NCBI GenBank assembly: GCA_018715645.1
Contig: DVLE01000046.1
Span: 1-64,000 of the forward strand
DNA length: 64,000 bases
Direction of reading: 5' to 3'
Source of the DNA: Candidatus Merdisoma merdipullorum
GTDB lineage: Bacteria > Bacillota > Clostridia > Lachnospirales > Lachnospiraceae
Position numbers and translations under genes: made by a program
Shown here: positions 41,955 through 44,345 of the stretch, piece by piece
Numbering within the stretch: the stretch's first letter is position 1
Layout: every line of letters begins with the position of its first letter
Notes under the pieces: generated by a model
Told to the model about the DNA's origin: nothing
Databases searched by the model: none
Seen by the model: only the letters and a program-made list of their open reading frames with translations

Positions 41955-42093
41955 CAGCCAAGCCATGCAAAAGCCGGGAAAATGTCCACTGCGTGCTTGC
42001 ACGCAAGGGGATATTTTTCCGGCTTTTATAGGGCGCAGCCCCGCAGCCAGGGGAAAACGCAAGCGTTTTCCCCTGGCTGACGTGGCTTGGCTG
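41955..42093. other. Branched multi-hairpin intergenic element
   Basis: Closing stem CAGCCAAGCCA/TGGCTTGGCTG around hairpins AAAAGCCGGGAAAAT/ATTTTTCCGGCTTTT, GGGC/GCCC and perfect 17-bp CAGCCAGGGGAAAACGC/GCGTTTTCCCCTGGCTG. Confidence 0.7.
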
Positions 42094-42181: not shown

Positions 42182-42438
42182 CTACGGATGAAAAGCCAGG
42201 AATCGTCTATTTCATCCGTAGAAATCAGGCTCTGTCTACGGATGCAAAACCAGGAATTGCGTATTATATCTGTAGAAATCTGGCTCTGTCTACGGATGTA
42301 AAACCAGGAATTGCATATCACATCTGTAGAAATTCGCGTATGTCTACAGATACAAAGCCAAGAATTGTATATTTCATCCGTAGAAGCTTGCCTTTTTCTA
42401 CAGATACAAAGCCGGGAAATTGCGGATTACATCCGTAG
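42182..42438. repeat. Five-copy 54-bp tandem repeat of inverted 9-mers
   Basis: CTACRGATR starts at 42182, 42236, 42290, 42344, 42398 (exact 54-bp period), each with YATCYGTAG about 31 bp downstream. Confidence 0.9.
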
Positions 42439-42578
42439 AGTGCTGCCGCAATGGCAAGCCGCTGCCCTCAAATTCTATTTTTCTTGCTTAAATCCCCAAA
42501 TTACAAAAATATGTTTCTGGAGTTTTTCCGATACTATACTCATAATTGACAGGAAAACAGTATAAAGGAGGAACTCTT

Positions 42579-43427
42579 ATGTCGTATGAAATCACCCAGG
42601 AATGCCTGTCGGCCTATCTTATCCGGCTGCGGGAGGAGGAAAAAAGTCCCCATACGATTCAGAAATATTTCCGGGATGTGAAAGCGTTTGGAAATTTTGC
42701 AGACGGAGACTTTTCCGGAAAAGAAACGGTACTGCGCTGGAAGGAGCGTTTGAACAGAAATTATAAGCCAAGAAGTGTGAATTCCATGATTGCTTCTCTG
42801 AATCATTTCTTTTCCTTTATGGGCTGGGAGAGACTTCGGGTGCGTATGTTTCGGATTCAGGAAGAAATCTATGAAAGGGAGGAGCGGGAGCTGACAAGAA
42901 TGGAATATGAACGCCTTCTGAGAGAGACGCGTCGGAGAAAAAACAGACGTATGGAGATGCTTTTGCAGACTCTTGGGGCCACAGGAATCCGCATCTCAGA
43001 ACTGCCGTTTATCACAGTGGAAGCCGTGAGAAAGGGAAAGGCTGACGTCAGGGGAAAGGGAAAGCAGAGACAGGTATTCCTTCCTGGAGAATTGTGTCAG
43101 GCATTGCGGCGGTATGGAAGGGAACAGAAGATAACGGCAGGCCCGCTTTTTGTCACGCGGACAGGGCGGCCCCTGGATCGGAGTAATATCTGGAGGGAGA
43201 TGAAAAAGCTCTGCGAGCGTTCCGGGGTAAGTCCGCAGAAAGTATTTCCGCATAATCTCCGTCATCTGTTTGCGAAAATCTTTTACCAGTTGGAAAAGGA
43301 CATTGTGAAGCTGGCTGATATTCTGGGACACAGCAGTATCAATACTACGAGAATCTATACGAAGGAGAGCGGCAGAAGTCACCGCAGGATGATAGAACGG
43401 ATGAAATTGATTTTGTATACAACATAA
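42579..43427 (+). CDS. Tyrosine-type site-specific recombinase (XerD/phage integrase family)
   Basis: LLQTLGATGIRISEL, FPHNLRHLFAK (HxxR), LGHSSINTTRIYTK (H and catalytic Y). Start after AAAGGAGGA. Confidence 0.93.
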   Translation: MSYEITQECLSAYLIRLREEEKSPHTIQKYFRDVKAFGNFADGDFSGKETVLRWKERLNRNYKPRSVNSMIASLNHFFSFMGWERLRVRMFRIQEEIYEREERELTRMEYERLLRETRRRKNRRMEMLLQTLGATGIRISELPFITVEAVRKGKADVRGKGKQRQVFLPGELCQALRRYGREQKITAGPLFVTRTGRPLDRSNIWREMKKLCERSGVSPQKVFPHNLRHLFAKIFYQLEKDIVKLADILGHSSINTTRIYTKESGRSHRRMIERMKLILYTT

Positions 43428-43442
43428 TCTATATCATGTTGT
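43419..43442 (+). repeat. Left recombination-site-like repeat ACAACATAATCTATATCATGTTGT
   Basis: Perfect reverse complement of 43650-43673; overlaps the recombinase stop codon. Confidence 0.9.
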
Positions 43443-43649
43443 TGATACATAGTGCAGTCCGGGTGTATTTTATCACAGACTGCTTAAAAAGACGATCTGC
43501 AGTCAGCTTTTTTCAGAAAACTGGAATGAAAAAGAGCTGGTGAAATTGAAAAATGGCAGGACAAAGAAACCTGTACGGCAAAATGCAGGGAAAAGCTGAA
43601 AATTTTTTCATTTCTTTGTCTGCGATCCGACTGCCGGCGACGCGGAATT

Positions 43650-43673
43650 ACAACATGATATAGATTATGTTGT
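43650..43673 (-). repeat. Right recombination-site-like inverted repeat
   Basis: ACAACATGATATAGATTATGTTGT, reverse complement of the left copy. Confidence 0.9.
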
Positions 43674-43700
43674 TAAGGCGCTGACAGAAGGAGAATACAA

Positions 43701-44345
43701 ATGAAAAAGAGAAGAAGGGGTTTTATTTTTATATTGGCGTTTGCGGCGGCTGTATGTTCCGGCTGTATAAAACAGGAGGAAGAAAGCAGTTCCATGCGCT
43801 CGGTGATCTATCTGTATCCCAGAGATGCTTTGGAGGTCAGTATTCAGCTGAACGGCAGCAGCCTGGAGGATGCCTGTACTTATCCTCGTTATAAAGAGGG
43901 CTGGCATGTAATAGCGAGACCGGATGGGAGCCTGACAAATCTGGACGATGGGCAGGAGTATGACTGCCTGTTCCGGGAGGAAAATGTGGAGGAAACTTTT
44001 GATATGGAGGAAGGCTTTTTGGTAAAGGGGGAGGAGACCGCTGCCTTTTTACAGGAGACTTTCACAGGATTGGGCCTGATTCCGGAGGAATACAATACGC
44101 TGCTTGTCTGGCATCTGCCGCAGATGGAGGAGAATCCCTGGAATCTGATTATGTTTCGTACGGAGATAGGCAGGGGAAGCACGTCGCTTGCGGTCTTGCC
44201 GGAACCGGACAGAGTTTTTCGGGTAATTATGGCGTATCAGGCTTTGGAGAAACCGGTAAATGTCAGGGAACCCAAGCTGGAAGAGCTGGCGCCATCCCGG
44301 AACGGATTTACAGCCATAGAATTTGGAGCGCTGGAACTATCCTGA
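43701..44345 (+). CDS. Putative lipoprotein, unknown function
   Basis: Signal peptide with lipobox-like AAVCSGC; RBS AGAAGGAGA; 27 bp after the right repeat. Confidence 0.75.
   Translation: MKKRRRGFIFILAFAAAVCSGCIKQEEESSSMRSVIYLYPRDALEVSIQLNGSSLEDACTYPRYKEGWHVIARPDGSLTNLDDGQEYDCLFREENVEETFDMEEGFLVKGEETAAFLQETFTGLGLIPEEYNTLLVWHLPQMEENPWNLIMFRTEIGRGSTSLAVLPEPDRVFRVIMAYQALEKPVNVREPKLEELAPSRNGFTAIEFGALELS

Follow-up and report, generated by a model that had tools for sequence, protein, structure and literature searches.

A candidate invertible-promoter switch beside its own tyrosine recombinase and ahead of a lipoprotein gene in a Lachnospiraceae genome, with relatives across the Clostridia

The stretch of DNA analyzed here (the window; 64,000 nucleotides of Candidatus Merdisoma merdipullorum, contig DVLE01000046.1) carries a locus which, judging from its sequence and that of its relatives, is very probably an autonomous invertible-promoter (phase-variation) switch for a lipoprotein. 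The first-pass annotation had proposed a switch that the adjacent tyrosine recombinase inverts, toggling either the lipoprotein or an antisense RNA, and this reading is strongly supported by the pattern found across the recombinase family, which comprises a conserved architecture, homologous cassettes in both orientations, and a private core at each switch. The features of the locus are as follows.

42579..43427, plus strand: tyrosine recombinase of 282 aa, presumed invertase (Pfam, active site)
43419..43442, plus strand: left recombination site, ACAACATAAT-CTAT-ATCATGTTGT, holding the recombinase stop codon
43443..43649, no strand: 207-bp invertible cassette, aligning in the same orientation with its orthologues at 57-64%
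43467..43472, minus strand: predicted -10 element TAAAAT with TG extension (TGATAAAAT), pointing to the recombinase as assembled
43490..43495, minus strand: -35-like TCGTCT with a 17-bp spacer (TTGTTT, TTGTAT, and TTGTGC in orthologues)
43650..43673, minus strand: right recombination site, exact reverse complement of the left site
43687..43693, plus strand: ribosome-binding site GAAGGAG of the lipoprotein gene, outside the invertible segment (direct reading)
43701..44345, plus strand: switched lipoprotein gene of 214 aa, a diverged paralogue of a conserved lipoprotein near recA

In the proposed mechanism, the recombinase would bind both inverted 24-bp sites, each with a 4-6-bp crossover core between arms of 9-11 bp, and strand exchange between the sites would flip the 207-bp cassette. 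In the assembled orientation, the cassette's single predicted sigma-A promoter, with its extended -10, would read into the 3' end of the recombinase gene, a state in which the lipoprotein would be OFF and antisense RNA to the recombinase would be made. In the inverted state, the promoter would read out through the right site and the lipoprotein would be ON. We infer that flipping occurs in the source strain and is done by the adjacent recombinase, that orientation governs expression, and that the antisense RNA has a role.

The 255-bp segment sits between the recombinase gene (42579-43427) and the lipoprotein gene (43701-44345). A re-check of the sequence agrees exactly with the perfect 24-bp inverted repeat described earlier (43419-43442 and 43650-43673, with 207 bp between), and this repeat is not due to chance, as a perfect repeat even 16 bp long occurred in none of 7,100 shuffled 3' windows. 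The left copy takes in the end of the recombinase gene, with its two final sense codons and stop (ACA ACA TAA), and the computed inverted sequence gives the same recombinase product, as had been predicted, because the stop codon lies within the left site. The right copy stops 27 bp short of the lipoprotein start codon at 43701, and the segment holds no ORF longer than 36 codons in either orientation, both in line with the earlier description. A short element bounded by perfect terminal repeats might instead be a MITE-like mobile element that landed beside the recombinase. We regard this origin as extremely improbable, given that the position behind the recombinase is fixed at orthologous loci and across the class, and that neither of the marks of MITE or transposon membership was found: the element is present in a single genomic copy, with no other copy of the 24-bp repeat detected in the 97-contig genome at up to three mismatches, and direct reading of the flanks revealed no target-site duplication. 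A flipped copy of the cassette was also looked for elsewhere in the assembly, and none was found.

The recombinase matches the Pfam families Phage_integrase (2.5e-25) and Phage_int_SAM_1 (1.1e-8) and has a full R-K-H-R-H-Y active site (R142, K166, H229, R232, H255, and Y264), the residues of which are kept in 76-78 of 78 relatives. Its scores for XerD (129.3 of 329.6 bits), XerC (122.9 of 335.15), and XerA (143.7 of 220) are all below the equivalog cut-offs, and both a Xer identity and a Xer/dif reading of the locus were rejected. The switch lies in a chromosomal stretch which, with ORFs named by reading, we take to be rnc-smc-ftsY-ilvA ... mntP-spoIIIA, an arrangement typical of Lachnospiraceae. 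The gene order is common to Lachnoclostridium sp. An138 and An131, and a Merdimonas MAG has it likewise with one extra gene; the recombinases at these three loci are 78-79% identical to that of the window. Upstream of the recombinase, a 54-bp tandem repeat (4.8 copies, 42182-42439) was observed, each unit of which can form a CTACGGATG/CATCCGTAG hairpin and of which related copies occur at six further places in the genome. Between ilvA and the recombinase (41961-42087), there is also a sub-threshold match to Clostridiales-1 RNA (RF01699; 40.6 bits against 48).

Promoters were predicted with a simple weight matrix by scanning 5-70 bp inside each site, with the 95% level of the null as the cut. 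One promoter-like block, on the minus strand, is kept across all four orthologous cassettes, with -35 elements TCGTCT/TTGTTT/TTGTAT/TTGTGC (window first), a 17-bp spacer, and extended -10 elements TGATAAAAT/TGCTAAAAT/TGATAAAAT/TGGTAAGAT. The window's own predicted promoter is moderate, with a degenerate -35 (TCGTCT) and a score of 9.7 against null 95% and 99% levels of 8.8 and 11.0. The plus-strand TTGATA-18-TATTTT noted in the first-pass annotation does exist (9 of 12 matches), but its role as a promoter is not borne out. Matches of this type are no commoner in the region than in shuffles (4 vs 2.8 +/- 1.8), the -10 block is conserved in the orthologues but the -35 is not, and, taken as minus-strand sequence, this block is the extended -10 that is accompanied by a 17-bp spaced -35 in four species. 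Similarly, the GACTGC/GCAGTC hairpin is present but does not hold up as a terminator, being unconserved in the orthologues and failing the terminator scan. No strong terminator was seen, so the OFF state may be leaky. Because the conserved promoter lies on the minus strand, the assembled state would be OFF for the lipoprotein rather than ON. When the inversion is computed, 75 bp separate the end of the -10 from the lipoprotein ATG, and the predicted leader, roughly 70 nt long, contains the right site and the GAAGGAG ribosome-binding site.

All four orthologues of the locus, each from a different species and seen in assemblies only, are in the same OFF orientation, which, together with the degenerate -35 of the window, would also fit a relic inverted repeat locked OFF in this lineage. 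This possibility appears very unlikely, since both 24-bp sites of the window are perfect, the catalytic residues of the recombinase are intact, and the right sites are identical in the four species despite the divergence of the enclosed DNA to 57-64%; such matching between distant sites would not persist in a relic.

The working-switch reading draws strong support from the wider family, for which 81 recombinases of 39-100% identity were gathered together with the sequence 3' of them; these loci are not independent samples, as orthologues share history. The repeat count was limited to relatives with over 400 bp of sequence on the 3' side, 71 in all; in 57 of them, the 3' end of the recombinase is marked by a perfect inverted repeat of 16 bp or longer. 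The repeats nearly always begin within 90 bp of the recombinase end, and their arms are mostly 155-360 bp apart. As controls, 20 distant recombinases of about 30-33% identity were taken from the same family's genomes, and one of them had such a repeat. A 33% identical control recombinase (L208; G131:C14:26500-27480) is followed by a 17-bp inverted repeat with copies 124 bp apart, and possibly belongs to a sister family of switches. The recombinase itself was found in 50 of 288 genomes of the class (E <= 1e-50), and a Monoglobus megaplasmid carries the same module with a 22-bp perfect repeat. In a phage record with a 47% identical relative (MT836497.1), no repeat was seen in the stretch searched.

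Across the family, the site consensus is TACAACATAAT-N4-ATTATGTTGTA. The site finder scored the arms only, thereby avoiding selection for matching cores, and its threshold of 11.5 was lax, being reached by 5 of 20 control recombinases, with genuine pairs mostly above 14. The two N4 cores of a locus were identical, in inverted order, at 62 of 66 two-site loci (chance 1/256 each), and 40 distinct cores occur among these loci, only one of them palindromic. In a fresh sample of 29 loci from other Clostridia families, 26 had two sites, 25 of which shared the same inverted core. Paralogous switches within one genome mostly have different cores, for example CTAT, GGTG, GCCG, and ACGG in G222; in G149, there are six cores among seven switches, and the shared core belongs to a recent duplicate. 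If the recombinase needs homology in the overlap, such private cores would keep the switches of one genome apart. The 3' flanks of two loci (L042 and L085) have three sites, the third repeating the left site in direct orientation, so that deletion or other inversions would be possible.

Cassettes were oriented by one predicted sigma-A promoter just inside one site, with OFF meaning toward the recombinase and ON toward the next gene. Predicted promoters above the 95% null level point toward the recombinase in 49 of 64 cassettes and toward the gene in 11 of 64, with about 3 expected each. The first sample, weighted toward Lachnospiraceae, gave 45 OFF and 8 ON among 53 oriented cassettes; in the fresh sample, 11 were OFF and 10 ON, and TTGACA-17-TATAAT was present in many. 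Nine of 53 alignable cassette pairs are in mutually inverted orientation, and the recombinases of one inverted pair (L160/L165) are 81% identical. On the recombinase tree, orientation changes at least seven times. Moreover, contigs end within 310 bp of the recombinase on the 3' side at 6 of 62 loci and on the 5' side at 1 of 62, with 0.74 expected, and mixed orientations would cause such breaks at the switch. Taken together, the two orientations among related cassettes, the changes on the tree, and the assembly breaks constitute strong evidence, at the level of sequence comparison, that the module flips in the family. Terminator-like hairpins lie behind the promoter in 23 and 24 of 53 cassettes on the two strands, compared with about 7% in shuffles, and are weak in the window. 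Two cassettes (L056 and L176) have about equally strong predicted promoters both ways, so that one gene direction may always be on.

The genes behind the family's switches include pilus genes, SipW-type signal peptidases, sortase, CpsB, Wzz, NusG-like and polysaccharide genes, as well as large repeat proteins, BTAD regulators, a GGDEF protein, and a few others. Odd targets were seen at L061, L075, L067, and L068 (TIR-domain, AbiGi/DUF2971-like, methylpurine-DNA glycosylase, and GGDEF protein). In the window, the target has an invariant lipobox cysteine (Cys22) after its signal peptide, and searches of Pfam, NCBIfam, and PDB gave no match for its family. A paralogue with no recombinase lies just upstream of recA in the source genome and its relatives, and in a comparison across the same species, identity is 74-83% among the unswitched copies and 46-51% among the switched ones. 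The window points to a lipoprotein with two copies, one unswitched and conserved, the other switched and evolving fast. At L124 (G000:C87; 491-1345 and 1465-2106), the unswitched paralogue adjoins another gene of lipoprotein type, which by eye resembles a D-Ala-D-Ala carboxypeptidase; this pair lies upstream of recA and is conserved in the genus.

The switched lipoprotein gene of Lachnoclostridium sp. An138 (L033; G222:C59:49993-50631) contains an in-frame TAG, indicating that the target may be dispensable. Since the recombinase of this relative is intact, and cassettes point toward the recombinase at 45 of 53 loci in the Lachnospiraceae-weighted sample and at 11 of 21 in the fresh one, the segment might flip mainly for feedback on the recombinase, with OFF-state antisense RNA lowering its expression and biasing the switch and with the lipoprotein a secondary or accidental target. 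We consider this unlikely, because three or more of the four species retain the lipoprotein downstream and because the target genes, which vary by locus, are nonetheless mostly co-directional and of surface or regulatory type.

As a kind, invertible-promoter switches are already known, and the window locus adds one more, which would work like the invertible promoters of gut bacteria and C. difficile. Mpi of Bacteroides is a serine master recombinase, and its motif and lineage differ from those of the present family. Invertible promoters of Bacteroides (Mpi and others) also lie ahead of capsule and surface loci (PMC8748976). The RecV switches of C. difficile (flg, cwpV, and cmrRST) resemble the present ones in combining a tyrosine recombinase with short inverted repeats upstream of surface genes for phase variation (PMC8890394, PMC5903667). 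However, RecV is one enzyme that serves several switches of modest repeat similarity, whereas each switch here has its own adjacent recombinase and a private core; nearly all loci have one recombinase immediately 5' of the switch, and a RecV-type arrangement with one trans-acting recombinase was rejected. PsrA of streptococci, a distantly related tyrosine DNA invertase (29% to a plasmid-borne PsrA), inverts hsdS methyltransferase genes instead of a promoter cassette (PMC7096588). The closest published counterpart is inverton group 139 of the 2025 hCom2 survey, which by its main text comprises 33 invertons, 32 of them from Clostridia, and is statistically linked to a nearby tyrosine-type recombinase family, invertase group 35 (PMC11892184). 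Orientation shifts of this group were seen in reads, e.g., in Clostridium sp. D5 and Intestinimonas, and the inverton of Clostridium sp. D5 has 26-bp repeats about 205 bp apart (PMC11892184). Groups 139 and 35 are probably the same family as the present switches, a likeness drawn from lineage, spacing, and recombinase linkage rather than from repeat motifs (PMC11892184). A literature search found no published description of this recombinase-switch family beyond PMC11892184; private cores and cross-species orientation are absent from the main text of that survey, and the private-core rule is the part not found described in the papers searched.

Tentatively, and with somewhat less than an even chance of being right in full, we suggest that one-recombinase/one-promoter cassettes occur class-wide, that a private core has evolved at each locus so that paralogous switches flip independently through overlap homology, and that antisense RNA in the OFF state feeds back on the recombinase. 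The signature of a recombinase, an inverted TACAACATAAT-N4-ATTATGTTGTA pair, and a gene would make phase-variable surface genes of Clostridia legible from single genomes, their ON or OFF state included, and the variable core provides a testable rule for how similar switches may coexist without cross-recombining.
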